The notes under the pieces are model-generated. The model was not told where the DNA came from. It did no database searches and saw only the letters and a list, made by a program, of their open reading frames with translations. Both the position numbers and the translations under genes were made by a program. A stretch of DNA of 38,721 nucleotides from a virus. Of the stretch, positions 4,819-30,825 are shown one piece after another; the stretch's first letter is position 1; each line of letters starts with the position of its first letter. The stretch is from IMG/VR virus record IMGVR_UViG_3300030085_001600, positions 1 to 38,721 of that record. One strand, 5' to 3'.

Positions 4819-5421
4819 TTATTGTTTTTGTTCTGCGTTTATTATCTGATAATTTGGATTTTCAATATTAGCTGTCATTTTTCTTACAACTATTTTTAGA
4901 ATATCATGTTGATAATGTTCTGGAATATCTTCCCACTCACTAACAGTTAGGTGTGATAAAAATCTTATACTGAACTCGTCAGTAGATGTAAAGTCAATAG
5001 ACCCGCCATTATTAAAGAATAACTTAGGTTCTCCTGATTCCTGTGTTACCGCACATATTGGATTGTTTTCGTCTACACTTTTAAACGGATTACTTGTACG
5101 TGTTAATTCACTAAATTCGTCATCTGATACTATTTTACATGTTACACCATTTAACACAGCATTTGTTAAGTGTAAATAGGATATATCAAATGTAACACTA
5201 TCTGTTGACGCTGTAACATTACCAGTACTTTCAGTTGCTGAATATCTATTTCCAATTATTTCAGAATAATCTTGATTTATTCTCATAAGAGCATACCTAG
5301 AGTTTAAAAACTCTGTTATAGACATATTGATAAATTTATCTTTTTCATCATCTTGAAAATATGGTTGATTTGCTTTATCTAATAATAAATCTAAATATTC
5401 GTACGCATCTGTGAGTGTCAT
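4819..5421 (-). CDS. Putative head-tail adaptor/ring protein
   Basis: This 200-aa protein has an N-terminal helical segment (TDAYEYLDLLLDKANQPYFQDDEKDKFINMSITEFLNS in overlapping parts, residues about 4-40) resembling phage head-tail adaptors that bind under the portal. It is followed by a Ser/Thr-rich beta region and a helical C-terminus (HYQHDILKIVVRKMTANIENPNYQ). It follows the 245-aa gene by 6 nt and is the last gene before the hairpin pair, so it ends the capsid transcription unit. Adaptor/ring function is an inference from position and N-terminal helices; no catalytic motif is seen. Confidence 0.45.
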   Translation of the reverse strand: MTLTDAYEYLDLLLDKANQPYFQDDEKDKFINMSITEFLNSRYALMRINQDYSEIIGNRYSATESTGNVTASTDSVTFDISYLHLTNAVLNGVTCKIVSDDEFSELTRTSNPFKSVDENNPICAVTQESGEPKLFFNNGGSIDFTSTDEFSIRFLSHLTVSEWEDIPEHYQHDILKIVVRKMTANIENPNYQIINAEQKQ

Positions 5422-5427
5422 TCGTTA

Positions 5428-6165
5428 TTACTTTTTTAAATTATCTATTTCTTTTTCTATTTCAGAAATTGCAGAACCAGCTCTTAGTGGATGTTGTTCC
5501 ACTTCTTCTAATTCAATAGTTTCTTCTACAGGTGTTACTCCAGTTCTAAGTTGGTGTTTTAATAATGCGTATGTATCACCATTATCTTTTAACCATACAA
5601 TAGCCTGGTCATCTGTCATACCTATATTAAGTGTATTATGTTTCCATACACCATTTACTTTTGTTAAAAGTTTTTCATTAAAAGCTTTTTTCAAAAATAT
5701 TCTATGTTCTTTATCAATGTCGTTTAATTGTTCTAAGAACTTTGCTGGTTTTGTACTCGCGTGTTGTATTATTTTAGCTCTTAACAACATTTCTTGTAAA
5801 GTACTATCCAGTCCAAGTAATAAAGCAAAATCTTTTAATTCTTGTTCTTTTAGTTGTGAAGCTGTTGTCACAGCTTGTGCTGACAAAATTGATGTTTCTG
5901 CATTCTGTCTTTCTGTTGCAGACACATCTTCAACTATAAACTTTTTTATTAGAGGATGGTCTTTTAAAAACTCATATACAGACTTGTCGTACTCGTCATT
6001 TATATTAAGTGATACAACTGCGTTAAACATTTCATATCCACTTGTTTCTAATCCATTTATGTCTATTAATTTTTGTATTTTACCTCTTTTATCTTTGTAA
6101 GTACCAAACTTACAGTAATTAAATTTTTCTGGTTTTCTTGCTTTAATTAATACGATGTGTTTCAT
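5428..6165 (-). CDS. Conserved virion-module protein of unknown function
   Basis: This 245-aa protein has a compact beta-rich N-terminus (MKHIVLIKARKPEKFNYCKFG) followed by a long helical, charged region from about residue 95 to the end, finishing in an acidic Glu-rich tail and a short Lys tail. No signal, membrane segment or known catalytic motif was recognised. It lies between the major capsid unit and the adaptor-like gene, where crAss-like phages carry unassigned proteins of similar size. A role in head completion or as ejected cargo is possible but cannot be shown here. Confidence 0.45.
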   Translation of the reverse strand: MKHIVLIKARKPEKFNYCKFGTYKDKRGKIQKLIDINGLETSGYEMFNAVVSLNINDEYDKSVYEFLKDHPLIKKFIVEDVSATERQNAETSILSAQAVTTASQLKEQELKDFALLLGLDSTLQEMLLRAKIIQHASTKPAKFLEQLNDIDKEHRIFLKKAFNEKLLTKVNGVWKHNTLNIGMTDDQAIVWLKDNGDTYALLKHQLRTGVTPVEETIELEEVEQHPLRAGSAISEIEKEIDNLKK

Positions 6166-7417: not shown

Positions 7418-8965
7418 TTACGATACAGAAAGGATACCACAAGATAATGGGTTTCTAACTACGATACCAGTTTCAGAAAGCACGTGTGCTTCAAACTTGT
7501 CATCAGCGTTAGCAGCCAACATTGAACTTTGGTCATAAGGGTTTACCATTCCAGAAACATATTTCTTAATCATACTTCTGTTAGTTCCCTCAGCTCCTTT
7601 AGTAACTAACTCAACATTAGATACACCAGAAGTACTTCCGAAGTCCATGAATACCATCTTAGCAGACTCTTTTAATCTGTTGTCACCAAATGAATTAGTT
7701 CCACCAGCAGTAGAGTGTAAGTGTGGGTCATCGAACACTGGACAGTAAGCGATTGTAATTTTGTTTCCTAAAGCTTGGTATGAAACGAAGTTAGCTCCTA
7801 AGTCTACATTTCCGCTTACACCTGACATAGAACCACCAGTAAACGCACCCGCTGGGGCAACGATTAATTCTTTCATAGCTCTATGGAACGCTAATCTACC
7901 TTCAGTACCAGTAAATACTACATACTCGTTACCTTCTGATTGAGTTGCGTTAAGTGATAATTTAGCAATAAACTCAGTGATTATATCTTCAGTTAAAGAC
8001 CCCATTGAATATGAAGCTTGGTTTGAAGAATCAATTTGAGCTAATAAACCATCACCTGTAATAATAGAAGCACCTGCAGTTCCTGAAGTTCCTAAAGCAG
8101 AAGAAACCAAAGCTCCTGGTCTTGCTACAGTGTTTACACCTCCTTCATTAGTTACAGACTTTCTTCCGTACCATCTTTGTAATTCTTGTTGGTACATGAA
8201 CTCGTCCATCATCATTTGTTCTCTTGTAAAGTACCATAATCTAGAACCATTGTTTTCAATCCAAGAAATATCGGTAAGGTCTTTACCTGTTACTGTACAT
8301 TTCTTTCTCATTGTAGTTAAATAGTTCTTATGTGTTGATGGGTAGTAGAAGTTCTCACCTACATCAGCTCCGTTGGAACCATTTGGAAATGCAGAACCGA
8401 TAGAAGCAATAATAGCTTCGTCAGCTACATCTGTTTCTAATAAAGGTTGAGCAGACGCGTCTACCATTTCAAATTTTACAACGAAATCTGTAGAAGCTGC
8501 TGAAGCAGTTGTGTTAGCAATTGGGTCTTCTACAACGATAGCAGTTGCTCCTGATTGGAATCTTACCATATCGAACTTGTTTAAGAAGTCACCAGTTCTA
8601 TCTGTAGCTGTACCATCAATTATAATTTCGAATACATCACCATTAGCATCAGCTCCATCTAAAATAATACCTGTAGTTGATGTTGGTGTATTCGTAAATG
8701 CTGTATCAGCAGATACTCCTTTAAAGAAACCTGTAGAATATGATGGTCTATTGTATCTTCCCATTACCTTCCACTCAAAAGAGTTGTCTCCTAATACTTT
8801 TTCTTGTGCGAACCTTCCAGTTCTTTCTAATAAATACGTAGCTGAGTATCTTGGATATTGCTGAATTAAAGTTCTAGCAATTTCTGGATACTGCATTAAA
8901 GCTGTATTTAGGGCGTTTTCTGCGGTAGTACCATTTCCGTACTCACCTGAATAAACTTTTGCCAT
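7418..8965 (-). CDS. Major capsid protein
   Basis: This 515-aa protein lies in the canonical place after TerL, portal and the scaffold-like gene. The N-terminal part (QYPEIARTLIQQYPRYSATYLLERTGR, in overlapping pieces, then FEWKVMGRYNRP) and the FTREQMMMDEFMYQQELQRWYG helix at about residues 249-270 resemble crAss-like major capsid proteins of the HK97 fold. Length also agrees (about 500 residues). The codon use is noticeably more G/C-containing at third positions than in neighbouring small genes, consistent with high expression. No cleavage site or protease is obvious. It follows the scaffold-like gene after an 83-nt gap. Confidence 0.8.
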   Translation of the reverse strand: MAKVYSGEYGNGTTAENALNTALMQYPEIARTLIQQYPRYSATYLLERTGRFAQEKVLGDNSFEWKVMGRYNRPSYSTGFFKGVSADTAFTNTPTSTTGIILDGADANGDVFEIIIDGTATDRTGDFLNKFDMVRFQSGATAIVVEDPIANTTASAASTDFVVKFEMVDASAQPLLETDVADEAIIASIGSAFPNGSNGADVGENFYYPSTHKNYLTTMRKKCTVTGKDLTDISWIENNGSRLWYFTREQMMMDEFMYQQELQRWYGRKSVTNEGGVNTVARPGALVSSALGTSGTAGASIITGDGLLAQIDSSNQASYSMGSLTEDIITEFIAKLSLNATQSEGNEYVVFTGTEGRLAFHRAMKELIVAPAGAFTGGSMSGVSGNVDLGANFVSYQALGNKITIAYCPVFDDPHLHSTAGGTNSFGDNRLKESAKMVFMDFGSTSGVSNVELVTKGAEGTNRSMIKKYVSGMVNPYDQSSMLAANADDKFEAHVLSETGIVVRNPLSCGILSVS

Positions 8966-9048: not shown

Positions 9049-10047
9049 CTACTCGCTCATGAACGCTTTTGGGTCAAAACCTTTACTTTTCGGTTGATAA
9101 GTATTTCGGCTTCTTCCCGTGTTAAGGCTTGGCGATTGTATTTTGTCCATAAGACTCTTACTACCCTCGTTACGACCTTGTGAACGAAGAATGTCTTTAA
9201 TTTGGTCTTTGTATAACATAAACATGGCCACATCTGCAACATTGGCATGGTCTGACCATAATTCTTTTGACATACTATTAACAGCAAATCTGTACGCTTC
9301 TTCTTTCTGTTGTTTCGTTATTTTCCCGCCCATAAACCTGTCCATATTTTTAAATTGTTTTTGCAATCCTTTTCTAGCTTCCTGAACTCTTCTATTTTGT
9401 TCTTCCTTAGTTTGTTTTGTTTCTCTTACTAAATCTTGTCTTTGTTGTTTTATAGCGTTTTTAATGGTTCTTTTGATTTCTCTACCTTTTAAAGCAATCA
9501 TACCATTTTTCATCATTTTGTCTACAGTGTCATCTATTTCGTCATCTGTTAGACCATCTGCTTTTAGTTCTTCTATAACTAAATCTTTGTTTGAGAAAGA
9601 CAAATAAGTTTCTAATGTTCTTATTTGTTCGTTTGAAACTTCTTCAGTTTGTGGTTCCTCTTGTTTATTGTTAAGAGCGTTAAGACTTTCTCTTATCTCA
9701 TCTTTTGAAGCTCCTTCCATTCCGAGTTGTTTTGAAACTAAGTCCCAATTAATTTCATCTCCTGATTCATTAGTCTCTTCTGTACCGTCCCAGTTATAAG
9801 TTTCTTCTTCTACTTCTGATTCTTCTTTTTCTTTTTTTTCCCAAGACCATCCGTCTTCTTCTTCTTCTTCTGTTTCTACAGATTCATCTGTAGTTTCTGT
9901 TGTTGTTTCCGTAGCTATTGGACCAACTTCTCCTGTTGGTTCGTCTTGTGTAAAAGCTAGTGGATTAAACTTGTTTAAATCGTTTTCTTCTGTAGCAGGC
10001 GTATCATTTACAACCTCTTCTACTAATTTTGAATTTTCTTCTGACAT
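9049..10047 (-). CDS. Putative scaffolding protein
   Basis: This 332-aa protein is very acidic in residues about 1-130 (long Glu/Thr runs around EETEEEEEDGWSWEKKEKEE pieces), then strongly helical and Lys/Gln/Arg-rich (about 140-280), with a disordered C-terminus containing TYQPKSKGFDPKAF. Lying directly between portal and major capsid, this is the typical composition and place of a scaffolding protein. No protease catalytic motif is visible. A promoter core (10075-10082) lies just upstream, so scaffold and capsid could be expressed separately from portal. Functional call by synteny and composition. Confidence 0.6.
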   Translation of the reverse strand: MSEENSKLVEEVVNDTPATEENDLNKFNPLAFTQDEPTGEVGPIATETTTETTDESVETEEEEEDGWSWEKKEKEESEVEEETYNWDGTEETNESGDEINWDLVSKQLGMEGASKDEIRESLNALNNKQEEPQTEEVSNEQIRTLETYLSFSNKDLVIEELKADGLTDDEIDDTVDKMMKNGMIALKGREIKRTIKNAIKQQRQDLVRETKQTKEEQNRRVQEARKGLQKQFKNMDRFMGGKITKQQKEEAYRFAVNSMSKELWSDHANVADVAMFMLYKDQIKDILRSQGRNEGSKSLMDKIQSPSLNTGRSRNTYQPKSKGFDPKAFMSE

Positions 10048-10086: not shown

Positions 10087-12348
10087 TTAATTTACATTTT
10101 TTTCTTTTGCTCTTATAATATCTTGTATTGATGGTTTTTCACTAGGTGGACCTTGACTCTCCGCTGACTTAGAAGCAGCTTCTTTTCTCATGTCTGCCTC
10201 TACGTCACTATCATGCATATCACGCTTGTCATCTGACGACATACGAGCAACTTCTAATCTAGACTCAGCTCCGATTTCCGCCACTCTTATCTTAGCTTCA
10301 TTATCTATCTGTTTCAATTGAGCTTCTCTTTCAAACTTTTGTTGTTCCATTTGTTCTTGCATTTGCATTTGTTGCATTGCTTGTTGTTGTTGTTGTGCAG
10401 CTTGTTCTTTTATTTGGTCCATACCTTTTTCTAAAACTTTTTCAGCTTCAGTCATTGTATCAGCTTTAATAACTTTTAATATATTTAAGAAATCTATTTG
10501 ACCTGATTGTAAAGCTGATTGTGCTAATTGTTGTACCACTTGTTTCATAGCGTCATCTTTACCACTGTCTCCAACATATACACCATAATCCTGTAAAGCA
10601 ATATCAGGCATTACACTGATAAATTTATACGCACCATCTCCTAATATTAAAGCTGCTTTCTTTCCGTCCGCCCAAGCAATCTTCATATAGTTTGCTAGTC
10701 TTTCTAAAACTCTTTGTTTTACTTCTGCATGTGAATAGAACCATGACTCTGTTATAGTAGAAGATTGTACTACACTTCTTTGTACATTACCTACATATTC
10801 ATATTGACCTACAGCACCTTCTCTTTGTCTTGTAACACCAGATAACTGACCAGCCATATCCTCTAACATAATTTTTAAATTAATTAGTTGTTGTACAGAT
10901 TGTGATAATGTAAAATCGACTTGTTGAAACTGATTAAATGAACTTACTTGTCCTCCTTCGTCTTTAGAGTTGATTGGTATAATACCATCTGTTTTTAAAT
11001 GATACAATACAGTCTGCATGTCCATACCTACATTGGTTGGTATTTGTGAAGTATCGTATACCACAGCTTTACCACCTGAACGAGCCATAGCTAATTCTAT
11101 TTGATATATAACTATATTATATAACATCTGTGTATTGTGTAATAAATCTACCATAGATGTATTTGTACCAGTTGTGTTTCCATATATACACCCTACATAT
11201 GATAGTGGTGTTCTACCTGGGTCATCAACTGACCTTACTTGATTATCTCTACGTTTTGCTTTTGTTAAGATTTTACCACCAATTTTTGTAGCTTCCCAAA
11301 TGTCATCCACCCATTTTATTTCTATTTCTTCTCCCTTTCTTTTTCTGTATGTATCCTTTACCATTTTTCTAAATGGTCTGTCTGGGTCATATTTGTTAGG
11401 TGACACCTTAAACTTAATAGCTCTAAGTGATTTCCATTCACATGTTACTACACGTATACGATTTTCTCTACCTCTAGAACTGTCTATCCACATAAACTGT
11501 GTGTTATAGTCATCTAGGTCTTGTCCATACGCGTGTCTCATTTCGTCTATTAACCTTAAGTCTTCTTCTGACAAGAATTGTTTGTATTCATCAGCTATTT
11601 CGTTTGCAGATAAAAATCTCTCTTCACCCACCCAAGCTGCATCATCTATATAATCTGAATGTACACTTGAATCGTATATTATAGCTCTTGGGTCTATCCT
11701 ACGCGCGTGTGGGTCTCCATTTAGTATCTCTACTTTGTAAAACTCCTTACCTGTTACAAGTAAATCTCTAAAACCTTCTTTAAACTTATCTTTTAAGTTG
11801 TATCTATTTAACACATATTCCAAACCATCCTGTGCAACTTCTTCTACCATTTCTCGGTAGTTATATTTCATAAATGTATCTATATCATCAGGAACTGGCA
11901 TACCTTGTCCTTCGTCAGTAATTGGAGCTCCATAATTCTCTTCAAACTCTTTGTGTATATCCTGTAATAAATTTTTCATTTTCAAAGCTACCTTGTAATC
12001 TAGTTTTCTAACTACAGCTTCTTTATTGACAGTAGAGACTTTCATGTCTATAGGTCTTTTAAGGTCTTCACCTACCAATAAGTCAATCTTTGGCGTAATA
12101 ATAGGATAATTAACCAGTCTAGCTGGATAGGTTAATCCATACTGTTCTGTTATATATGTATAGTCGTCTTGGTTTATTTGACCATTATAAATACTATAAT
12201 TTTTAATGTCTTTAGTTCTAGAACTTTCATATGGACTTTCTCCATATGTCATATAACTTATGACCGCCTCTAGAACTCTATTACACCATTCGTCATTTTT
12301 TTCTTTTTCAGAAACCATCATAGATGGAAAACTAGTATTGTATGCCAT
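10087..12348 (-). CDS. Portal protein
   Basis: This 753-aa protein is encoded 2 nt after TerL. The N-terminal region (YSIYNGQINQDDYTYITEQYGL, then ARLVNYPIITPKIDLLVGEDLKRP in parts, residues about 50-120) matches the pattern of large crAss-like portal proteins. The middle has the YNIVIYQIELAMARSGGKAVVYD segment and an INLKIMLEDMAGQLSGVTRQREGAVGQYE segment typical of phage portals. The C-terminus is Gln-rich (about residues 640-700), coiled-coil-like and charged. It forms the dodecameric DNA channel at the head vertex. Length (about 750) agrees with the family. Confidence 0.8.
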   Translation of the reverse strand: MAYNTSFPSMMVSEKEKNDEWCNRVLEAVISYMTYGESPYESSRTKDIKNYSIYNGQINQDDYTYITEQYGLTYPARLVNYPIITPKIDLLVGEDLKRPIDMKVSTVNKEAVVRKLDYKVALKMKNLLQDIHKEFEENYGAPITDEGQGMPVPDDIDTFMKYNYREMVEEVAQDGLEYVLNRYNLKDKFKEGFRDLLVTGKEFYKVEILNGDPHARRIDPRAIIYDSSVHSDYIDDAAWVGEERFLSANEIADEYKQFLSEEDLRLIDEMRHAYGQDLDDYNTQFMWIDSSRGRENRIRVVTCEWKSLRAIKFKVSPNKYDPDRPFRKMVKDTYRKRKGEEIEIKWVDDIWEATKIGGKILTKAKRRDNQVRSVDDPGRTPLSYVGCIYGNTTGTNTSMVDLLHNTQMLYNIVIYQIELAMARSGGKAVVYDTSQIPTNVGMDMQTVLYHLKTDGIIPINSKDEGGQVSSFNQFQQVDFTLSQSVQQLINLKIMLEDMAGQLSGVTRQREGAVGQYEYVGNVQRSVVQSSTITESWFYSHAEVKQRVLERLANYMKIAWADGKKAALILGDGAYKFISVMPDIALQDYGVYVGDSGKDDAMKQVVQQLAQSALQSGQIDFLNILKVIKADTMTEAEKVLEKGMDQIKEQAAQQQQQAMQQMQMQEQMEQQKFEREAQLKQIDNEAKIRVAEIGAESRLEVARMSSDDKRDMHDSDVEADMRKEAASKSAESQGPPSEKPSIQDIIRAKEKNVN

Positions 12349-12349: not shown

Positions 12350-14167
12350 TTAATTCATTTTTATTGGTATGCCGTTTCTACCACGTTTATAATATTTCAA
12401 TCCTATATCTATTACTTCTTCTTTTTCATGTACTCTCATTCTAAAGTTGTCTATATTATGTATTAGACATATACCAAAAGCCATAGCTCGGTCAGTATTT
12501 TGTAAACCATAATTTGCCAACTCATCTATCAAATCTAAAAACCATATGTCTCTCACATTTTCTCTAATGTAATCATCTATCAAATCTTCCAACAAACTCT
12601 TAACCTGTTTATTCATATGGACACCATATTGGTTTCTTGTCCTAGAATTAGGGTTGTGAGCTGACTTAGGTTTTTCTTTCAAATATTTCAACGCGTTCAT
12701 ACGTTTAAAGTAATCTAAAATACCTATCTTTGTATATTCAACTAACATCTTAGCATTATAATACACAGCTAACTTTAAACAACCGTCCCAAAAATCTTCT
12801 TTTTTAGGCGGTCTATCAGTATATTCAGCTACCACGTAATCACTTGGTATATTTGTATTTGCAAATCTACGATAAATTATTGCACTTCCCAAAGAATTTG
12901 ACGCTCCAGCGGTATCTTGGTCGTAAGAATCGACTCCACCAATGTCAATTCCCTCGTATTCTGTCATTGGGTGAGCTAAAATTTTGTATGGACCCTCTGG
13001 GTGTGGTTTCCATTTTACTTTCATTTCTCCACTATCTGTAAACACCCAATCTAAATATCCGTTTTGTATTTGACTTGTATAGTCTTTACTACTTAGTATT
13101 CTACTTCTTTGTGCATTTAACAATGATATATCAAACCTACTTTGTTTAGTATTCAAAAAAGCTTCTTGTATAGTTAATGGATAGTTTTGTATATGTAGAT
13201 TGTAAGCTTCATTATCACCAGATTGTCTAATATTTTCTCTTTCTTCTTGTAATGTTTCTTCAGCTCCAATGACATCTTCTACACCTGTTTCTACATCAAA
13301 GAAACCATAGTAGGCTTTTGAAGCTGGTATAAACATAGGTATTAAATTATAGGCGTCATGACTATAATACATATCCATAAAATCTTTAGACGCTCTTGAT
13401 ATATCACCTCCAGTACCTCCAATTATCGGTACACCAAACTGTACATTACCATCCATAAAACATGCCTTAGACGACATGTATGCATTTTTCAAATGTTTAA
13501 ACTCTCCAGCTTCTTCGAATACCATTAATGACAAACGCTCTCCCTTAAATACTTCTGGATTATCCATCGTTCTGCATATAACTGTGGACTGGTAACCACC
13601 AATCTCCCACTTACCATCTTTGTTTTTCTGTTTATAGCCCGAACGTAATATACCATCTGTATCCTTTAGTACTGAGTGTTTGAAATTAGGATGAATACCA
13701 TTCAACCCTTTTTTAGTCTTATCAAAAAATGCGTCAGCAGTGGCCTGCAAACCTGCCGCTACACCAATATCATTGTATGGAAAGAAAGTATACTCATGAG
13801 CTACCATACCAGAGTTCATATAAGAAAACCCTTTATCTCTGGCTTTAATAATAATCATACCCTTTCCTTCCTCTTTACAAGTTTCAAAAAGGTTAAAATA
13901 CTCTCTATCCATTTCCCTGTACCATGGATGTATTAATGACTTTCTTCCACCTTTGGAACCGTCATTACCCAATATATAATAAAAATTCAGGTAGAAGTAA
14001 TACTTACCTGAAATAGCTGGCATACCTTTTGGTTTAAAACCATTTATACACCTATCTTGTTGTTCAGACCACCATTCCTGGTATTGAACTGAGTTTTCGT
14101 CTAAATCTGGAAAACCGTTGTTTGGAATTGGCCTGTACCTTTGTGGATTAAATTTAATTTTACCCAT
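12350..14167 (-). CDS. terL: Terminase large subunit
   Basis: This 605-aa packaging motor has an N-terminal ATPase with a Walker A-like KARDKGFSY (residues 108-116), a Walker B-like LMVFEEAGEF (214-223), and a C-terminal RNase H-like nuclease with D408 (GIDIGGVDS), E477 (MLVEYTK) and D559 (NTDRAMAFG) as the likely metal ligands. The Walker A lacks the usual lysine in the GKS/T position, as seen in some other phage terminases. It overlaps the 91-aa gene by 8 nt and precedes portal by 2 nt. No small terminase is recognisable; one of the small upstream genes may serve. Confidence 0.85.
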   Translation of the reverse strand: MGKIKFNPQRYRPIPNNGFPDLDENSVQYQEWWSEQQDRCINGFKPKGMPAISGKYYFYLNFYYILGNDGSKGGRKSLIHPWYREMDREYFNLFETCKEEGKGMIIIKARDKGFSYMNSGMVAHEYTFFPYNDIGVAAGLQATADAFFDKTKKGLNGIHPNFKHSVLKDTDGILRSGYKQKNKDGKWEIGGYQSTVICRTMDNPEVFKGERLSLMVFEEAGEFKHLKNAYMSSKACFMDGNVQFGVPIIGGTGGDISRASKDFMDMYYSHDAYNLIPMFIPASKAYYGFFDVETGVEDVIGAEETLQEERENIRQSGDNEAYNLHIQNYPLTIQEAFLNTKQSRFDISLLNAQRSRILSSKDYTSQIQNGYLDWVFTDSGEMKVKWKPHPEGPYKILAHPMTEYEGIDIGGVDSYDQDTAGASNSLGSAIIYRRFANTNIPSDYVVAEYTDRPPKKEDFWDGCLKLAVYYNAKMLVEYTKIGILDYFKRMNALKYLKEKPKSAHNPNSRTRNQYGVHMNKQVKSLLEDLIDDYIRENVRDIWFLDLIDELANYGLQNTDRAMAFGICLIHNIDNFRMRVHEKEEVIDIGLKYYKRGRNGIPIKMN

Positions 14168-14435
14168 ACCTTAACTTTCTTGGTTTGTCAAAACCAAAAA
14201 CATTTTTGTTACTTAATTTATTTTGCTCCTTTGTTTCGTACCAATTTCTTAAATCTAATTGATACTGTTTTAAACTATAATCATTATACTTATTTGCCTT
14301 TTCTAAATTCCCTGTAGTATAATGTTTTTTAAACTGTGACTTTAAATAGGTTACAATTCTTTTTTTATCTTTACCTTTTATAGATATATCTTGTTCTTTA
14401 AACTGTATTGGTTTTCTGACACTTTTCTTAAACAT
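14160..14435 (-). CDS. Small basic protein upstream of terL
   Basis: A 91-aa basic, helical protein with Lys/Gln-rich segments (KKRIVTYLKSQFKKHYTTGN) and a DLRNWYETKEQNKLSNK stretch. It overlaps terL by 8 nt and the preceding gene by 8 nt, so the three are translationally coupled. The position just before terL makes it a candidate small terminase, but no HTH is evident and the size is small for that role. Otherwise unknown. Confidence 0.5.
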   Translation of the reverse strand: MFKKSVRKPIQFKEQDISIKGKDKKRIVTYLKSQFKKHYTTGNLEKANKYNDYSLKQYQLDLRNWYETKEQNKLSNKNVFGFDKPRKLRYG

Positions 14436-14760
14436 GTTGTTCTTTTAATCTAAACATTCTACCCTGACAACAACACATTCCATTTGGTTTTACGTTACCT
14501 CTGTATCTCATGCCATGTGCAGCTTTTTTTGTTTTTTTGTATCTAGAAACTCTACCTTTTTTATTTTTTTCTTTTTTTGCTCTAGCTTTTTCAGATGGTG
14601 ATAATTCTGACCATGTAGCAGGTGTATCTTTGCTTATACGTTTAGTTGGCCTAAAAGTATTTTCACCTCCAGAATAATCTTTCTTACCTCTAGGTGTTCT
14701 CCAATCTTCCTTAAACCATCTTTTTAATCTAAGTCCAGCTTTTGTTTTTCTTACAGCCAT
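14428..14760 (-). CDS. DUF5872-like small basic protein
   Basis: This 110-aa, very basic protein starts with KAGLRLKRWFKEDWRTPRGK (residues 6-25), the RWFKE-W-G-K pattern of the DUF5872 family, common in marine phages and giant viruses, function unknown. The middle has SKDTPATWSELSPSEKARAKKEK, also typical, and the C-terminal part has a CCCQGR cysteine cluster that may bind metal. Its abundance of Lys/Arg suggests DNA or RNA association or packaging with the genome. It overlaps the next gene by 8 nt. Confidence 0.6.
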   Translation of the reverse strand: MAVRKTKAGLRLKRWFKEDWRTPRGKKDYSGGENTFRPTKRISKDTPATWSELSPSEKARAKKEKNKKGRVSRYKKTKKAAHGMRYRGNVKPNGMCCCQGRMFRLKEQHV

Positions 14761-14762: not shown

Positions 14763-15092
14763 TTAATCGTGTTGTGGGTTATTTCTAAAATGCACTTTAC
14801 CTCCTTTATTCCATTTCTTTACTGCTTTTGCAAAATCTGAACCAGGAGGAAAATTTTTTTTAACTGTAGTTTTTATACCTTTTTTTACATCTCTTTTAAC
14901 GTCTCTATAAACTCTTTTTCCTTCTTTGAGTCCTCCTTTTAAACTTTTCATAGCGCTATCAAAACTTCCCATTTCAAGATTTGAAAAAAGTCCATGTTCT
15001 TTCCAATTGTAAGGTTTTCCACTTACGTGACTATACCCTTTTTCAGAAAATGATTTTTTCTTTTTCTTTTTCTTTTTCTTTCCGTCACTCAT
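14763..15092 (-). CDS. Poly-lysine small protein ending in QHD
   Basis: A 109-aa basic protein with nine consecutive lysines near the N-terminus (residues 5-13), a YSHVSGKPYNWKEHGLF segment and a Lys-rich helical middle. It ends in NNPQHD, sharing its last three residues with the neighbouring 62-aa protein and resembling the QLD ends of two others. It is separated by 2 nt from both neighbours. Probably a nucleic-acid-associated virion or cargo protein; no family recognised. Confidence 0.55.
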   Translation of the reverse strand: MSDGKKKKKKKKKSFSEKGYSHVSGKPYNWKEHGLFSNLEMGSFDSAMKSLKGGLKEGKRVYRDVKRDVKKGIKTTVKKNFPPGSDFAKAVKKWNKGGKVHFRNNPQHD

Positions 15093-15094
15093 AA

Positions 15095-15283
15095 TTAATC
15101 GTGTTGTGAGTAGAATACTCCTCCAGATTTATATTTCATTCCTTTTGCTCCTTTCTTTTTGGATTTGTTCCCCCAATTTGCAGCTCCTACTTTACGGCAT
15201 TTGGCCATAGCTCCACTTCTATAAGCAGATGTTTTAGGTCCATAACGAGCTACTACTTTATGATAACAAGCATCTTTTGGCAT
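15095..15283 (-). CDS. Small phage protein of the PKDACYHKV type, ending in QHD
   Basis: A 62-aa protein beginning MPKDACYHKVVARYGPKTSA and continuing SGAMAKCRKVGAANWGNK, a small conserved module I recognise from many marine phage genomes. Two cysteines and two histidine-containing motifs are present. It ends with KYKSGGVFYSQHD; the KSGG-x-Q-[HL]-D type of ending recurs in this phage. The ATG (15283) overlaps the TAA of the preceding gene (TAATG), indicating coupled translation. Function unknown. Confidence 0.6.
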   Translation of the reverse strand: MPKDACYHKVVARYGPKTSAYRSGAMAKCRKVGAANWGNKSKKKGAKGMKYKSGGVFYSQHD

Positions 15284-15453
15284 TATTTTTTCTTTTTAGA
15301 TTTATGTACTTTTTGTATATCAAAACTGGCGGACAAACTTCCACCAGGGTGTTTTTTGAATCCACCCGCAGGGTTTTTCATTAATTTGTAGGTATTGTTA
15401 CCTTTTTTCATCCAGTGAAATCCAGCTGGTGCTTTAACAGTTTTTCTTGCCAT
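15283..15453 (-). CDS. Small GFHWM-motif protein
   Basis: A 56-aa ORF from the ATG at 15453 to the TAA at 15285-15283. The protein reads MARKTVKAPAGFHWMKKGNN at the start, followed by KNPAGGFKKHPGG and a Lys-rich tail. The APAGFHWM-type start is frequent in small phage proteins of this kind. It fills the gap between the 176-aa and 62-aa genes exactly (1-nt gap upstream, TAATG overlap downstream). Function unknown; likely another small basic virion-module protein. Confidence 0.65.
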   Translation of the reverse strand: MARKTVKAPAGFHWMKKGNNTYKLMKNPAGGFKKHPGGSLSASFDIQKVHKSKKKK

Positions 15454-15454
15454 T

Positions 15455-15985
15455 TTATAATTCTTTAATTTTTTTTCTATTTTCTAAGAAAGACAATCCT
15501 TTGTCTCCCGCAATTTTTTGTCTTTCTCCTCTTCTTTCTATAGCGTCAAGTAATGCTTGTCTAGTTTTTAATATTTTTTCTACACCAATCATTAACTTCT
15601 GCAACATTTCTGCGTTCTCATCATTCAAGAAGGTATTATTAATAAGATTTGTGAACTCGTTTATTTTTTTATTAAACGCAATTAATTGTTCGTCTAATGG
15701 GTCAAACTGTAGTTCTTTATACTTATTTATAGCTGATTTCATTTCAGGTTTATTTGCACCCGACCAACTATAAGTATCGTACAAATCTTTTGATACTACC
15801 TTTATTCTTTCATTTTCTATGTAGTGTCTGTATGGACTTTCGTAGTCAAATACAAGAGCTATCCACTTCATAGCTGTTTGTCCTAATTTTTCAGTGTCTA
15901 ACACTTTTTTAAATTCTGGTATTAAAACAATTCCAGAATCGTCTTTATAAATATCTCCCTTTTTATTAATTTGTAATAAATACAT
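15455..15985 (-). CDS. Unknown protein upstream of packaging genes
   Basis: A 176-aa protein with a beta-type N-terminus (MYLLQINKKGDIYKDDSG) and a mostly helical remainder, including a possible coiled coil at about 95-150 and a basic C-terminus (ENRKKIKEL). A KWIALVFDYESPYRHY segment at about 40-55 is distinctive. It abuts the 87-aa gene (1-nt overlap) and the 56-aa gene. Small proteins in this place upstream of terL occur in related Bacteroidota phages, but I cannot name the family. Confidence 0.5.
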   Translation of the reverse strand: MYLLQINKKGDIYKDDSGIVLIPEFKKVLDTEKLGQTAMKWIALVFDYESPYRHYIENERIKVVSKDLYDTYSWSGANKPEMKSAINKYKELQFDPLDEQLIAFNKKINEFTNLINNTFLNDENAEMLQKLMIGVEKILKTRQALLDAIERRGERQKIAGDKGLSFLENRKKIKEL

Positions 15986-16248
15986 TATATTGTTACGTGT
16001 AATAATTTAAATGTATTTTTATACAAATATTTTACAGTTTTCTTACCATACAATAAATCTAATTCAAGGTGTGGATTTTTGTATGTTGATATAGAATTGT
16101 CTAAATATATAAAGTTATTTTCTTCAATTCTATCTATAATTTTATCCACTTCTTGCATTAGTTTATCTAATTGTTTGTAGTTCTTTTCTAGATAAAAAAA
16201 TTCACCTTCCTTAACTATCCTTCCGTACTTTTCATTTATTATGTTCAT
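15985..16248 (-). CDS. Small helical protein, first gene of the packaging unit
   Basis: An 87-aa protein, helical in the first two thirds (LEKNYKQLDKLMQEVDKIID) and beta-like at the end. Its ATG lies only 4 nt from a TATCTTTG promoter core (16253-16260), so the mRNA leader would be very short or absent. It overlaps the 176-aa gene by 1 nt. No family recognised. Confidence 0.5.
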   Translation of the reverse strand: MNIINEKYGRIVKEGEFFYLEKNYKQLDKLMQEVDKIIDRIEENNFIYLDNSISTYKNPHLELDLLYGKKTVKYLYKNTFKLLHVTI

Positions 16249-16252
16249 ACTA

Positions 16253-16260
16253 CAAAGATA
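16253..16260 (-). promoter_or_regulatory. Candidate -7 promoter core, TATCTTTGTAG
   Basis: The minus strand has TATCTTTG followed by TAG; the same 11-mer occurs at 18760-18767 in front of the leftmost divergent gene. It lies between the terminator at 16276-16306 and the 87-aa gene, which supports a new transcription start for the packaging/capsid unit. Confidence 0.45.
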
Positions 16261-16275
16261 ATAATAATTTTTTGT

Positions 16276-16306
16276 AAAAAGAAAAACCCCTCAAAAAATA
16301 AGGGGT
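16276..16306 (-). terminator. Rho-independent terminator after the lysozyme-type gene
   Basis: The arms ACCCCT (16286-16291) and AGGGGT (16301-16306) form a 6-bp stem with a 9-nt loop. On the minus strand the stem is followed by TTTTTCTTTTT. It ends the two-gene unit 16397-18734. Confidence 0.75.
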
Positions 16307-16396
16307 CCTCCAAAACAAGTATGAAAACATGGAAAATAAAGAAGTTGCAAAATTACAAAAATTTTTTGTATTTCACACAAATAATCTTAAACTTTA

Positions 16397-18157
16397 TTAT
16401 TCTGAAGTATATTTGTCCATTAATTGGTTTTCAAACGAATCAGGAGCGGTGTGTGTTTGATACTCAAAGTGATATGGGTCAGAATAAGATTGTTCCATGT
16501 CTTCTCCAGCAAAATATCTATTGATGTCTCTAGAAAAACTATATGGTACATCAAATATTGACCTTAATCTATAAAACTGTGGAAAATGTGCAGACTCCGC
16601 TATAAGGTCAGATACATATTCTTGCATATTTATATTTTCTACAAATTTGCTACCTGATTTTGATGGTTCTGGGAATGCTATATGTATATTTCTTGTAAAA
16701 GGATTAAAATGAGGTCTGAATCGTGAAAATCGGGTTCCCATTTTTTTAGGAAATTGTTTAGCCAACATATGTGGTTCATTTATAATTTTATCCATACCCA
16801 AATCTTCTACCATTTTCATAAGTTTTGTATAATGGACTAATCTGCCGTCAGGCATTTCTACGAATTGGGCTTGACCATCTGAAGCTTTAAAAGCATCATA
16901 TATATTTTTTTGTGGTTGTGATAGTTTGTTATATGATTCTTCTTTTAAATCAACAAACTCTATTTCAGGTAGCATTACGTTAGTAACTGGTTCGTCTAAA
17001 TTTTTTTTTTTACCTCCGTTCTTAAATTTACCACCCTTTTTAAAATTCATAACCATTGTGTTCATATCTTGATTCATAGGTAATGAAACCATTGTGTTCA
17101 TGTTTTGGTTCATTGGTAAAGACACAACGCCTGGTATATATCCTTTATCTTCTCCTCCATGACGTTTTATCCAGTCCCCTAGATATGAATTGTAAAAAAC
17201 TTTATTTCTACCCAACTCTCTTTTTATTTCGTTTGGTTTTCCTTTGTTTTTATATGAATGTCTTTTGTACTCTGCTGCCGCTTTTTTTACATTTCCAGTC
17301 CTAATAGCGTCCATAAACTTTGGAAACTTTTTAACTGCGTTTCCTAAATTGTATTCAAAATCTACCAACATAAGTTTTTCTATTTCGGACAGTTTTTCAA
17401 ATTCACCCTCCCCAAATTTACCATCGAAATCTTCACTTAAACTTTTCATATTAGAGTTAATGTCTTGTCGAAGAAAATCATTCGCTTCTTTTACAGTAAT
17501 ACCGTTTTTATAATCATTTTCTATATCCAATCCTTTGACAGCACTATTAGTTCTTCCAAAACCTATAGTAACTTTACCTCCAACATCTTTGTATGGATAA
17601 TATCTTCCGTTTTCAAAAGCTTTATAAAATCCTCCACCTGGTTTTGGTATAATAGAAGGTGTTTTCTTCATTACAGCGTCGGAAGCTTCTACTGATTTTA
17701 CATAATTTGTATAATACCCATAGTTATCAACTTTAGGAGTTTCTTCTGTTGTAGTTCCTCCGTTCTCATACATCATCACACTAGGATTTACAAATGGATT
17801 TTCGATTGTAGTATCTATATTGTATGGTGTTAAAGACAGAGAGCCACCACCCTTAGTGGCTTTTCTATCTATAATTCCTGACTGCCTAGACACTGAGGTC
17901 CCTACACCAGCCTCTGTTACACCAGAATCACCAACTCTTGGTTCTAAACCATCTCTTGGGTCACCTACATCACCTCTTTCTTGCGGATTGTCTAAAGTAA
18001 CATCAGTAAAGGTAGGTCCACCCATGTTTTGATTGTAAGGGTCAAAGGTACCTCCAGTATTCATTATCTGACGACTTTTTAATATAGCGTCCTCTATTAT
18101 CATAGGTACGTGTTTAACATTACCTATCATGTTAATCATGTCCTTATATGAACCCAT
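16397..18157 (-). CDS. Virion lysozyme fusion protein (GH24 domain)
   Basis: This 586-aa protein has a low-complexity, Gly/Asp-rich N-terminus (1-145), then a T4-type lysozyme domain at about 150-335. The catalytic triad is intact in spacing: E182, D191 (YPYKD) and T197 (VTIGFGR), as E11-D20-T26 in T4 lysozyme. A linker (about 340-390) holds a tandem 12-residue repeat and a Lys/Gly-rich segment. The C-terminal domain (about 395-586) has a DLIAESAHFPQF helix that looks like a degenerate metallopeptidase helix. It is probably a virion-associated muralytic protein used for entry, or a cargo protein, since a separate M15 lysin exists. Neighbours: 1 nt after the 191-aa gene. Confidence 0.7.
   Translation of the reverse strand: MGSYKDMINMIGNVKHVPMIIEDAILKSRQIMNTGGTFDPYNQNMGGPTFTDVTLDNPQERGDVGDPRDGLEPRVGDSGVTEAGVGTSVSRQSGIIDRKATKGGGSLSLTPYNIDTTIENPFVNPSVMMYENGGTTTEETPKVDNYGYYTNYVKSVEASDAVMKKTPSIIPKPGGGFYKAFENGRYYPYKDVGGKVTIGFGRTNSAVKGLDIENDYKNGITVKEANDFLRQDINSNMKSLSEDFDGKFGEGEFEKLSEIEKLMLVDFEYNLGNAVKKFPKFMDAIRTGNVKKAAAEYKRHSYKNKGKPNEIKRELGRNKVFYNSYLGDWIKRHGGEDKGYIPGVVSLPMNQNMNTMVSLPMNQDMNTMVMNFKKGGKFKNGGKKKNLDEPVTNVMLPEIEFVDLKEESYNKLSQPQKNIYDAFKASDGQAQFVEMPDGRLVHYTKLMKMVEDLGMDKIINEPHMLAKQFPKKMGTRFSRFRPHFNPFTRNIHIAFPEPSKSGSKFVENINMQEYVSDLIAESAHFPQFYRLRSIFDVPYSFSRDINRYFAGEDMEQSYSDPYHFEYQTHTAPDSFENQLMDKYTSE
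17052..17123 (-). repeat. 36-bp tandem repeat within the lysozyme fusion gene
   Basis: Two adjacent 36-bp copies, differing at a few bases, encode VSLPMNQNMNTM and VSLPMNQDMNTM (residues 345-356 and 357-368). They lie in the linker between the lysozyme domain and the C-terminal domain, so copy-number change would alter linker length without breaking the frame. Confidence 0.8.
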
Positions 18158-18158
18158 A

Positions 18159-18734
18159 TTAGTCTAATTGTCTATAAGTACCTCCAGATTTATAAGTAGT
18201 TTTCATTTTTCCACCACCCATATAGGTCATCATATTGTTCATCATTCTTCTTCTGTCTTTCATGCCTTGCATTTTCATTCCTCCTGGCGCTTTTTTCATT
18301 TTCATTCCATGACGAGCCATAGAACCCATAGTTTCATCCATTTTTCCACCTTTTGCCATATAACCCATTTTATTTCTTACCTCAGTAGGTAATTTAGCGA
18401 GACCAGGATTCTTTTTAGAATTTACTTTTTTCAGTTTACCACCTTTTCTCATTTTCTTCGTTTTAGGTATGGTTCCTATGTTTTGCATTTTAGACTGAAT
18501 TACCAATAATTTTTTTCTTGCTTGTTCAGGACTTAATTTACCTGAATCCATATCTTTTTTTATTTGTATAATTTGTTTGTCTAAAGATGCTTGTGACTCA
18601 CCTTTTTGTTCTTTTGTCGCACCCTTACCGCCATCTGCCATTTTCTTCTTCATTCCGTAACGAGCTTTCTGCATTGGTTTGTTGTATCCACCACCATGTC
18701 CGTAGGACATTTTTTTCTTTTTTGATTTTTTCAT
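18159..18734 (-). CDS. Met/Gly/Lys-rich protein ending in QLD
   Basis: A 191-aa, very basic protein with Met/Lys/Gly repeats (GYMAKGGKM, TYMGGGKMKTTYKSGG) at both ends and a helical central part (about 48-85, SLDKQIIQIKKDMDSGKLSP). It ends with TYKSGGTYRQLD, similar to the ends of three other small proteins in this window. It is the first leftward gene of the divergent region, with a promoter core at 18760-18767. Composition suggests a nucleic-acid-binding or virion-cargo protein; no known family was recognised. Confidence 0.55.
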   Translation of the reverse strand: MKKSKKKKMSYGHGGGYNKPMQKARYGMKKKMADGGKGATKEQKGESQASLDKQIIQIKKDMDSGKLSPEQARKKLLVIQSKMQNIGTIPKTKKMRKGGKLKKVNSKKNPGLAKLPTEVRNKMGYMAKGGKMDETMGSMARHGMKMKKAPGGMKMQGMKDRRRMMNNMMTYMGGGKMKTTYKSGGTYRQLD

Positions 18735-18759
18735 TTTACTATAGTATTTAAATTTTCTA

Positions 18760-18767
18760 CAAAGATA
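18760..18767 (-). promoter_or_regulatory. Leftward -7 promoter core, TATCTTTGTAG
   Basis: The minus strand has TATCTTTG followed by TAG, 26 nt upstream of the ATG at 18734. Upstream is a 30-nt A/T tract. The same 11-mer occurs at 16253-16260. No canonical TTG at -33 was found. Confidence 0.45.
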
Positions 18768-18829
18768 AAAAAAATTTTTTTATTTTTTTAAAATTGTATG
18801 TAGTTATAAGAGGGGGATACAATATAGCA

Positions 18830-18846
18830 AACCACCCCCTGTGGTT
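18830..18846. promoter_or_regulatory. Inverted repeat next to the rightward promoter
   Basis: AACCAC (18830-18835) and GTGGTT (18841-18846) form a 6-bp dyad around CCCCT, just upstream of the TAACTTTG core. An alternative dyad uses AGGGGG (18811-18816) with CCCCCT (18835-18840). The two are mutually exclusive. This may be an operator or a bidirectional terminator in the divergent region. Confidence 0.4.
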
Positions 18847-18849
18847 GCG

Positions 18850-18857
18850 TAACTTTG
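18850..18857 (+). promoter_or_regulatory. Rightward -7 promoter core, TAACTTTG
   Basis: A perfect TAnnTTTG match 81 nt upstream of the first rightward small gene. A second, imperfect core (TATTTTG) lies about 20 nt further down. It is the best candidate for the early promoter of the rightward region; a -33 TTG is not evident. Confidence 0.4.
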
Positions 18858-18937
18858 TACACCGTACCCTATTTTGCAAGCGTCGTTCCTCCTTTGTTTT
18901 ATATTACACATAGATATTAACCTTAAATTATTTAACT

Positions 18938-19087
18938 ATGTATTACCTTGTATTATTCTTATCAATCTTATTAGCAGTATGTAAACTATTCCTAGTCGCT
19001 GGTCTTGTCTATCTATTATATATATACCTATCATCAGATAAGACACCACCAAACTACTTTAATACTAAACAAATCGGGGACAAATAG
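18938..19087 (+). CDS. Small membrane protein
   Basis: A 49-aa ORF (starting MYYLVLFLSILLAVCKLFLV) with one or two hydrophobic helices over residues 1-32 and a short polar C-terminus (SSDKTPPNYFNTKQ). The leader GATATTAACC shortly upstream also occurs upstream of the 79-aa gene at 19560. As the first gene after the rightward promoter it may be an early host-interaction or membrane-modifying peptide. No family recognised. Confidence 0.5.
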   Translation: MYYLVLFLSILLAVCKLFLVAGLVYLLYIYLSSDKTPPNYFNTKQIGDK

Positions 19088-19111
19088 TCCTCGGTTTACA
19101 AATTATATATT

Positions 19112-19192
19112 ATGAATGTATCTAAAATTGACGTATTGTTTATTATTTGTGCAATTATTGTCTACGAAATTATAAATATAGGGCTATTGTAG
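19112..19192 (+). CDS. 26-aa hydrophobic peptide
   Basis: ATG at 19112 to TAG at 19190-19192, encoding MNVSKIDVLFIICAIIVYEI and six more residues, almost wholly hydrophobic. The end of the coding region forms part of the terminator stem (19181-19195), a compact arrangement that supports it as a real transcript end. It could be a one-helix membrane peptide. Evidence is limited to ORF, leader and terminator. Confidence 0.4.
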   Translation: MNVSKIDVLFIICAIIVYEIINIGLL

Positions 19193-19201
19193 CCCTTTTT
19201 T
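19181..19201 (+). terminator. Rho-independent terminator
   Basis: GGGCTA (19181-19186), loop TTG, TAGCCC (19190-19195), then TTTTTT. It overlaps the last codons of the 26-aa gene and ends the first small rightward unit. Confidence 0.8.
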
Positions 19202-19559
19202 GCACAATTTATGTGTATTTACGATATATACAGCTAATCTCCTACACTCTTTTATGTACTATTTACATAGTTATTTACTATGATAAATCTGTAATTGTTT
19301 GATTATCAGTTAGTTATTGTATATTTATACTATATTATACTATATATTAGTATGTATTATTTATTTAACTGATTAAACTATATATTAATTATGATACGAA
19401 GTTATACAATTATTTTTATATTGTCAAGTGTTTTACCAACTATATTTATTACTATATTACATCGGTAATGTATTTATGTGATTAACAATATATTACGATA
19501 GTCACTTCGTTCCTTCGGTTAGGTATTATTTATGGATATTAACCAATAAATATATTATT
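19202..19559 (+). other. AT-rich gap of about 360 nt
   Basis: No gene is convincing here. A 25-aa hydrophobic frame (19391-19468, beginning MIRSYTIIFILSSVLPTIFI) is the only possibility and is weak. The DNA is extremely AT-rich with many TATA/TAT steps and short palindromes, suggesting an early promoter/UTR zone for the 79-aa gene or a region that melts easily. The last 30 nt repeat the GATATTAACC leader motif seen before 18938. Confidence 0.4.
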
Positions 19560-19799
19560 ATGAACAATGAAACAAACTTTCTAGAACAACTAGAACAAAA
19601 AAACGATTATCTTTATCAACAACTTAAAGAAGAATACAACAAATATCTTAAAGTAAATAGAGATATGAACAATAAGTATCCTGAAGCATACCAACAAACT
19701 GCAACATTCTACGAATGGGTACAGTCAGTATTACCAGAAAAGAAATGTGATGAACCATTACACAATCATCATGATGGATGTCCAGTATGTGATATGTAA
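19560..19799 (+). CDS. Small protein with C-terminal His/Cys metal-binding-like tail
   Basis: This 79-aa protein is helical and charged in residues 1-60 (FLEQLEQKNDYLYQQLKEEY) and ends with EPLHNHHDGCPVCDM, a CxxC pair next to a cluster of three histidines that could bind zinc or another metal. It has its own terminator 8 nt after the stop codon. Small, separately transcribed early genes of this sort often act on the host, but function is not recognisable. Confidence 0.55.
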   Translation: MNNETNFLEQLEQKNDYLYQQLKEEYNKYLKVNRDMNNKYPEAYQQTATFYEWVQSVLPEKKCDEPLHNHHDGCPVCDM

Positions 19800-19806
19800 T
19801 TACATT

Positions 19807-28877: not shown

Positions 28878-29643
28878 TTACTACGAAGACAGGGAGTATG
28901 TATCTAACAGTATGTTAAGTAATATATCTGTATCTCCTGAGTATTTTAAACATATGTATGACAATCAACAAAGTCCAACGCCTGCAATGAAACTAGGTAG
29001 TGCAATACATATGATGATATTAGAACCTATGAAGTTTACACAACACTATGCTATACAACCTAAATTTGACAAACGTACAAAACAAGGTAAAATAGATAGT
29101 GCGGAGTTTGAAAAACAAAATCAATTTAAAACTATTATTAGTGAGTCAGATTATGCTTTGTGCGAACAAATATGTTTTACCGTTATGAGAGACGATACAG
29201 TTTCTAAGTTGTTACAAAACGGTGAAGCAGAAAAAATTATTACTTGGACTAATAAATCATATAACGTTAAATGTAAGGGTATGTTAGACTATCATAGAGA
29301 TAATATGATAATAGACATCAAAACAACTAAAGATTGTTCTTACAATGGTTTTATGAAGTCTATGAGACAATATAAATATCACAAACAAGCTGCGTTCTAT
29401 ATGGATGCTGTTAAAGCAGATAGATTCTTTATAATTGCTATAGAAAAAACTGCACCATTTGCTATTAATATATTTGAACTAGGTGATGATATGATAGAGG
29501 ATGGTCGTGATATGTACAATAGTGAATTAGAAATATACAAATATTGTATGGACAATGATTATTGGCCTGGTACAGGTTATGACCCATTGAATAATAAATC
29601 AGAAAGAACAATACATATATTAAGTAATAACTATGAAATCTAA
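28858..29643 (+). CDS. PD-(D/E)XK exonuclease (YqaJ/RecE-like, DUF3799 type)
   Basis: A 261-aa nuclease from ATG 28858 (a longer start at 28834 is possible). Motifs: YVSNSMLSNISVSPEYF (14-30), LGSAIHMMILEP with H51, GMLDY with D144, IIDIKTT with D153 and K155, and YHKQAAFYMDA with Q177. These are the RecB-family nuclease residues used by lambda-type exonucleases. It would chew 5' ends to give single strands for the Rad52-like annealase. It overlaps the previous gene by 20 nt and the next by 11 nt. Confidence 0.85.
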   Translation: MSLTHHNYYEDREYVSNSMLSNISVSPEYFKHMYDNQQSPTPAMKLGSAIHMMILEPMKFTQHYAIQPKFDKRTKQGKIDSAEFEKQNQFKTIISESDYALCEQICFTVMRDDTVSKLLQNGEAEKIITWTNKSYNVKCKGMLDYHRDNMIIDIKTTKDCSYNGFMKSMRQYKYHKQAAFYMDAVKADRFFIIAIEKTAPFAINIFELGDDMIEDGRDMYNSELEIYKYCMDNDYWPGTGYDPLNNKSERTIHILSNNYEI

Positions 29644-30043
29644 ATCAGTATTATTCGAAGGCGGGGTAGAAAAAATATCTACCCTTGCCGACGGTTCATT
29701 AAGAGTACATATAGGTACACCTGAACTATCAGATGAAACTATGGTAAATTTATTTAAAATGAACAGAAAGACAGGATATGTATTACTATCACCATACCCT
29801 GTAAATAAAGACCAACAAGAAGCTGTAGAAAAAGCTAGTAGTTCTATAGAACACGAGTCTACAGAATTTGGTAACAAAACACCAAGTCAAAGACTAAGAA
29901 ATGTATTGTATGTACATTGGGAACAAACACAACCAAAACAAATCAATCCTGATAATGGACAATTAGAATTGGTTGAATTTGATTTATTTTACAAAAGACA
30001 ATTAAATAAAATTGTAGAACATTATAAAACTAAACTAAACTAA
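29633..30043 (+). CDS. Conserved protein linked to the exonuclease
   Basis: A 136-aa protein with a beta-rich N-terminal half (STLADGSLRVHIGTPELSDE, then TGYVLLSPYPV) and a helical C-terminal half with RLRNVLYVHWEQT and FDLFYKRQLNKIVEHYK. I recognise the LRNVLYV-WEQ and FD-YYK-type motifs from proteins encoded next to phage exonucleases in Bacteroidota and Firmicutes, but no function is known. It overlaps neighbours by 11 nt and 1 nt. Confidence 0.6.
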   Translation: MKSKSVLFEGGVEKISTLADGSLRVHIGTPELSDETMVNLFKMNRKTGYVLLSPYPVNKDQQEAVEKASSSIEHESTEFGNKTPSQRLRNVLYVHWEQTQPKQINPDNGQLELVEFDLFYKRQLNKIVEHYKTKLN

Positions 30044-30297
30044 TGAAAAAGAAAGATTTATTACAAGATTGGGAGATAGTTCAACAAGAATACTACGAAC
30101 AATTTAATCGTTCAGAATTAGAAGAACTTTGGGGAGAATGGTTTGGAATGAATGAAGAAATTCCTGAACCATACCAAAACAAAGATGACTTAATTAAAGA
30201 ACTTATTGAAGATGAGTTAAGACACAGAAAAGAAGATACTATTGAAGAACTTAAAGAAACAATAAATTATATAGAAAAATTAAATTTTATTAAATAA
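30043..30297 (+). CDS. Small acidic helical protein
   Basis: An 84-aa acidic protein, helical throughout (LLQDWEIVQQEYYEQFNRSE; LIKELIEDELRHRKEDTIEE). It overlaps the previous gene by 1 nt, and the next ATG follows its stop immediately. Unknown function. Confidence 0.5.
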   Translation: MKKKDLLQDWEIVQQEYYEQFNRSELEELWGEWFGMNEEIPEPYQNKDDLIKELIEDELRHRKEDTIEELKETINYIEKLNFIK

Positions 30298-30420
30298 ATG
30301 GCAGTAAAAAACTTTATATTTAAGGGTAATGGTAGAAAAAAACGCCCAGGGGTACATTCAAAAAACGCTAGTAAAAGTCAAACTAAATTTAAAAAAAAAT
30401 ATCGTGGACAAGGTAGATAA
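30298..30420 (+). CDS. Very small basic protein of the KKYRGQGR type
   Basis: A 40-aa ORF from ATG 30298 to TAA 30418-30420. It is Lys/Arg-rich (GNGRKKRPGVHSKNASKSQT) and ends KKKYRGQGR. Small proteins with a GVH-K-...-KY-RGQGR pattern recur in Bacteroidota phages. It overlaps the DUF3310 gene. Its charge suggests nucleic-acid or ribosome contact, unproven. Confidence 0.6.
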   Translation: MAVKNFIFKGNGRKKRPGVHSKNASKSQTKFKKKYRGQGR

Positions 30421-30727: not shown

Positions 30728-30825
30728 TAGCAATAATAACATTTGTAACAGGATTTGTGTCAGGTATGTATGTATCTACACAAATAGAAAAAGAAATAGA
30801 TAAAAATATAAATAACAATGATTAG
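30724..30825 (+). CDS. 33-aa membrane peptide
   Basis: ATG 30724 to TAG 30823-30825. It has one hydrophobic helix (MIAIITFVTGFVSGMYVSTQ) and an Asn/Lys/Asp-rich polar tail. It overlaps the DUF3310 stop by ATGA and the methyltransferase start by 8 nt, so it is translationally linked to both. The position between two cytosolic-enzyme genes is notable. Function unknown. Confidence 0.5.
   Translation: MIAIITFVTGFVSGMYVSTQIEKEIDKNINNND

Follow-up and report, generated by a model that had tools for sequence, protein, structure and literature searches.

Why should proteins of different families end in the same few residues? The question is raised by the window, by which we mean the whole stretch of 38,721 nucleotides analyzed here (positions 1 to 38,721 of IMG/VR virus record IMGVR_UViG_3300030085_001600), where four small basic proteins terminate in Q-H-D or Q-L-D. 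Our analysis gives good support for the conclusion that these ends are copies of a single lineage-specific C-terminal address label carried by small, strongly basic proteins of at least 15 unrelated families. The label is shared across families, specific to one viral clade and to basic proteins, kept at the level of the protein, and located on a predicted disordered tail. It probably serves, by analogy with known systems, to load basic DNA-associating cargo into the prohead.

One end on many small basic proteins

The window genes given here by coordinates all lie on the minus strand. A 109-amino-acid Lys-rich protein of net charge +21 (positions 14763 to 15092) has the tail KGGKVHFRNNPQHD and ends in NNPQHD, its QHD codons occupying 14766 to 14774; it belongs to a family in which both of the two members are tagged. 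Its neighbor, a 62-amino-acid protein with the ACYHKV domain, which is part of PHROG 727 (15095 to 15283), carries the tail KYKSGGVFYSQHD with QHD codons at 15098 to 15106. The third is a 191-amino-acid Met/Gly/Lys-rich protein of net charge +39 (18159 to 18734) with the tail TTYKSGGTYRQLD and the end TYKSGGTYRQLD (QLD codons 18162 to 18170), and the fourth a 111-amino-acid DUF6321 protein (35700 to 36035), in which the tail AHGCAMPRKNNYSSMRPQLD extends past the domain end KWNC to finish in SSMRPQLD (QLD codons 35703 to 35711). The last matches Pfam PF19846 (DUF6321) at 68 bits, the gathering score being 28.5, and searches of PHROGs and Pfam with the 14763 and 18159 proteins returned zero matches. 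The initial annotation had listed these four ends, placed the proteins in different families and pointed to a YKSGG stretch common to two of them (here those at 15095 and 18159), and all of this was borne out, with the nuance that domains of the 35700 and 15095 types, which correspond to different parts of PHROG 727, can sit fused in one polypeptide in other phages. Only its span was loosely drawn, since the end at 18196 falls within the 18159 gene.

Given the internal frequency of Q-x-D (0.0021 per position), the probability that about 60 genes include at least four of these ends is about 9e-6. The annotation had also suggested a survey of C termini in related genomes. We removed the last 20 residues from all open reading frames (ORFs, called mechanically) of 205 relatives' contigs and grouped the remaining bodies by similarity. 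Q-x-D ends were found in 16 of 751 families, where 1.6 were expected, and a chance origin of the shared ends was rejected on these two results. All 16 families are small proteins with 24 to 33% Lys plus Arg, and essentially no other kind of protein is tagged; one further tagged protein, present in two identical copies, has 19%. Because one group among the 16 arose by artefactual merging of low-complexity proteins, we state the count as at least 15.

The label reads roughly [K/Y]xxGG-x(2-4)-Q-[H/L, rarer Y/F/K]-D-COOH. Among 85 distinct tails, the residue between Q and D, which are invariant by selection of the set, is H in 42, L in 31, Y in 7 and K in 3. Gly-Gly, where present, mostly lies 2 to 4 residues ahead of Q and is followed, before Q, by a hydrophobic or aromatic residue plus Arg, Lys or Pro. 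This arrangement could be taken for a signal for proteolysis, acting either as a C-terminal degron that limits toxic basic proteins or as a site for cleavage after GG during head maturation, as double-Gly sites are substrates of several protease families. However, the most conserved part of the tail is the extreme Q-x-D, which a cut after GG would remove; GG is absent from 27 of the 85 tails; a maturation protease was not identified; and a terminal Asp is atypical of ssrA-type degrons. We consider proteolysis a quite improbable explanation.

Several tagged proteins, that at 18159 among them, consist of low-complexity Met/Gly/Lys repeats in which GGK units recur, which would suit descent of all of them from one ancestral K/G-rich gene whose diverged copies retained the tail. 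DUF6321, DUF5872, ACYHKV and GLYANI proteins are nevertheless unrelated in sequence and are untagged in other phages. Simple homology was rejected for these four families, and common descent as a general account is very unlikely.

The end and the virus lineage

Clade membership was set by terminase or portal identity, independently of the tag. The window's major capsid protein (7418 to 8965) is of the crassvirus type, scoring 127.7 bits against PF23898 (cut-off 27), and its portal protein, of the P22-like/crassvirus type (10087 to 12348), and terminase large subunit (12350 to 14167) share 27 to 31% and 28 to 30% identity, respectively, with those of crAss phages, which makes them crassvirus homologues. 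By these genes the window virus is a member of a distinct, shorter-genome marine branch of crassvirus relatives, whose members measure about 65 to 68 kb and whose contigs reach about 68 kb. To judge from the crassvirus kinship, the host is probably one of the Bacteroidota.

Inside the clade, every DUF6321 (23/23), ACYHKV (16/16), DUF5872 (19/19) and GLYANI (15/15) protein ends in Q-[H/L/Y/F/K]-x. Outside it, in sets drawn from similarity searches (up to 80 loci each), the same families gave 0/111, 0/49, 0/21 and 0/40; two apparent exceptions proved to be a clade contig initially left out (L429) and an accident of the pattern (QYR, in L376). The final residue is not D throughout, and A, S, N, K, V and G also occur, mainly in DUF6321 and long-form DUF5872 proteins. 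The latter include a 110-amino-acid window protein (14428 to 14760) with the variant or decayed end RLKEQHV, whose relatives end in KQHD/RQLD or EQH[D/S/A/K/G]. Long-form DUF5872 proteins (window 14428-14760; L331:5188-5502; L336:5183-5497; L353:5168-5482) share the end NMCCCGARMSRLNEQHx, the last residue being D, S, A, K, G or V; this Cys-rich end is perhaps metal binding, and it may represent a relaxed form of the tag.

The DUF6321 alignment shows where the label begins. Outside the clade, 88 of 111 proteins terminate exactly at [K/R/A]W[NK]C, whereas clade proteins continue for 8 to 20 residues beyond this point, and the clade tag is thus an added tail. In the AlphaFold model of the window DUF6321 protein, the predicted local distance difference test (pLDDT) score is 70 to 80 for the domain and below 50 for the added tail (residues 94 to 111), which is predicted to be disordered. 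These data suggest that the tag forms a flexible extension of a folded domain. The DUF5872 model (mean pLDDT 52) was too poor for use, and a search by sequence and by fold for relatives of solved structure returned zero. A further contrast concerns domain organization: outside the clade, 24 proteins join two of these domains into a single polypeptide, whereas inside it every domain has an ORF to itself and bears its own tag, as expected if every free-standing piece needs its own address.

A search that made no use of protein families gave the same picture. A DNA pattern for GG-x-Y-R-Q-L-D-stop was run over 2.9 million viral contigs (IMG/VR) and matched 25. Terminase identity (78 to 99% in contigs that include the gene) or overall protein identity places 24 of these in the clade. 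In 23 of the 24 the motif forms the end of a K/R-rich ORF, the other having no ORF call there, and the 25th contig has no such ORF. Seven tagged fragments without a terminase, three of them more distant, share gene content with the clade at 55 to 99% median identity, and the same fragments encode the window's 427-amino-acid protein at 53 to 73% identity.

Other phages carry the same domains with other ends. A second label, [K/R]GCGxVxxxRRKxT(K), terminates proteins of the ACYHKV, GLYANI and KAAAKRKF families, and of three or more further basic families, in a separate set of contigs. All six of these contigs with a terminase match are of the 023Pt_psg01/HTVC023P type (46 to 77% identity), compared with none of three untagged controls; this lineage is pelagiphage-like and unrelated to the clade. 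In crassvirus-like contigs of about 82 kb, the end GGF[IL]xP is shared by DUF5872 and a Met/Gly/Lys-rich protein (L338:3794-4534 and 5582-5872; L340:5204-5494; L342:4034-4534 and 5201-5488), possibly a third label. A common C-terminal end was not found in a similar cluster of small basic proteins in pelagiphage HTVC033P. The occurrence of the three ends in different phages indicates that labels go with the virus lineage, whereas the domains move between lineages. DUF6321 occurs in 481 phage records, chiefly of cyanophages and pelagiphages, and DUF5872 is listed in a gene table of the algal giant virus Chrysochromulina parva virus (PMC12085832), so that a phage domain family also crosses into eukaryotic viruses. 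That table was the only literature found on DUF5872, and none was found on DUF6321.

Peptide selection and gene position

If the ends arose at the DNA level, through translation coupling to the next gene or through 3' ends copied by recombination, the peptide would be a by-product. The next start codon abuts most tagged genes, CACAACACGATTAATTATG is common to two neighboring tagged genes in the window, and the tag His is encoded by CAC in 74% of cases against a background of 31%, an unexplained bias. However, in the tag codons of 113 clade proteins, Gln and Asp are at background (CAA 81% versus 79%; GAT 74% versus 72%), the tag is written in at least 25 distinct 12-mers, and the spacing to the following gene runs from -17 to +691, that is, from overlap to hundreds of bases. 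These observations indicate selection on the peptide. Moreover, the tag is limited to small basic proteins although many clade genes abut. A ribosome-binding or translation-coupling artefact was rejected by codon use and tag diversity, and a DNA-level cause is largely refuted.

In most clade genomes the tagged genes occupy a variable pocket between a conserved gene of 72 to 96 amino acids just upstream of the terminase gene (14160 to 14435 in the window) and a conserved 176-amino-acid gene (MYLLQINKKGD...; 15455 to 15985). The window pocket also contains an untagged 56-amino-acid basic protein that ends in KSKKKK (15283 to 15453). Other tagged genes lie by late genes near a conserved 141-amino-acid protein, as for window 35700 and in two other genomes (G001 and G009), and the 18159 gene adjoins that of a 586-amino-acid protein with a phage-lysozyme domain (16397 to 18157).

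This placement bears on the proposal that the label works as a docking motif by which a hub outside the virion (the phage replication or transcription site, the host nucleoid or a protein of the host membrane, for instance) recruits basic DNA-binding proteins during infection. The tagged proteins are indeed all strongly basic, and the evidence points to a shared partner without telling which one. Yet the label follows the terminase and capsid lineage, and its genes lie in the late region by the terminase and portal genes or near holin-like and tail genes, not by replication genes. We regard a hub outside the virion as unlikely.

Two side observations concern this region and large clade proteins. 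A protein of 194 to 481 amino acids upstream of the pocket (G004:3227-4672, G005:35265-36407, G001:58524-59108 and relatives) has the conserved C terminus ...[R/N]FTxGG[RK]F, which resembles the GG portion of the tag but lacks QHD. One clade genome contains a 3,951-amino-acid ORF (L167/L168; G014:25388-37243) ending in YGGSSEKESPIIR, which is likely to be a giant virion-associated protein. In its place, genome G006 has separate ORFs of 1,430 (29580-33872) and 1,431 amino acids (15510-19805), the latter with a similar ending.

Proposed loading of the prohead and known targeting systems

We propose that the free C terminus would be read by one phage-encoded head-assembly protein, which would gather the tagged proteins into the prohead, where the cargo would lie with the DNA and perhaps be injected. 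An acidic 332-amino-acid protein of net charge -28 in the scaffold position (9049 to 10047) is a plausible candidate reader, as may be the portal or the inner capsid face. Virion targeting is suggested by the position of the genes between conserved late genes, the charge of the proteins, the tracking of the terminase and capsid lineage, and the precedents of T4 and encapsulins, and we assign this reading as a whole a probability of roughly 0.55. In Roseobacter phage CRP-403, which is T7-like, the GLYANI-family gene (gp26; L431:17304-17471) lies between the scaffolding and capsid genes, a position hinting at a head role. The initial annotation had proposed a sorting tag, for example for packaging into the capsid, or else a degradation or processing signal. 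The sorting tag is upheld by its cross-family occurrence, clade specificity, protein-level selection, predicted disorder and the other label elsewhere; capsid packaging appears to be the best-fitting destination, and degradation or processing fits less well.

Several points weigh against loading of the prohead. The clade is uncultured and is known here from sequences alone. Its members are kin, and counts inside one family are not independent events; the strength of the evidence lies instead in the many unrelated families and the contrast between inside and outside. Experimental proof of a virion location for DUF6321 or DUF5872 proteins was not found in the sources checked, and a lead from a DUF6321-bearing cyanophage record named "structural protein T4-GC0119" was unsupported, the protein being "hypothetical" in PMC3037559. 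Two clade genomes, G006 and G007, have neither the tag nor these proteins, which implies that the cargo is dispensable. Absence of genes in fragmentary contigs is weak evidence.

Since the untagged clade genomes lack the proteins altogether, no clade protein of the four families was seen without the tag. For the same reason, and because several records are fragments, a presence/absence screen of 16 genomes for a partner gene isolated no candidate.

The cargo domains would circulate among marine phages, each lineage needing a label that suits its particular assembly machinery. We tentatively extend this, at somewhat less than even odds, to a lineage-specific cargo code, in which small basic domains of virion cargo form a mobile pool common to marine tailed phages, and every lineage adds a C-terminal label of its own (Q[HL]D, RGCG...RRKxT and perhaps GGF[IL]xP) that only its own head-assembly machinery reads. 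If so, a C-terminal motif would predict from genomes alone which of the unannotated phage proteins are carried in the virion; the DUF5872, DUF6321 and PHROG 727 domains, present in hundreds of marine phages, would gain a role; a short transferable tag would become available for loading proteins into crassvirus-type heads; and cargo swapping between phage lineages with specific packaging would become testable. In the clade, DUF6321 (PF19846), DUF5872 (PF19197) and PHROG 727 proteins carry the label; elsewhere they stop where the domain stops, occur as fusions or have other tails.

The T4 capsid-targeting sequence is N-terminal and is cleaved by gp21. Unlike it, the clade label is C-terminal, with a free terminal Asp, and the two have no sequence likeness. 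What they have in common is one short conserved terminal sequence on diverse small basic proteins, those of the clade being known from genes only. In T4, the capsid-targeting sequence encapsidates IPI-III and Alt into the scaffolding core; the internal proteins are diverse, this sequence is their only common part, and their lysines contact DNA (PMC3012670). In crassviruses themselves, capsid and tail offer a large space for protein cargo, and the cargos of phi-crAss001 (gp45, gp46 and RNA polymerase subunits) are large proteins; the available part of that account describes neither a shared C-terminal tag nor small basic tagged proteins (PMC10172136). In family 1 encapsulins, a short C-terminal peptide on unrelated cargo families is read by a shell of the HK97 fold (PMC8346489). 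The clade peptide differs in sequence from those of encapsulins, and its cargo consists of basic, nonenzymatic domains in a DNA-filled virus, but it is likewise a C-terminal peptide on unrelated proteins.

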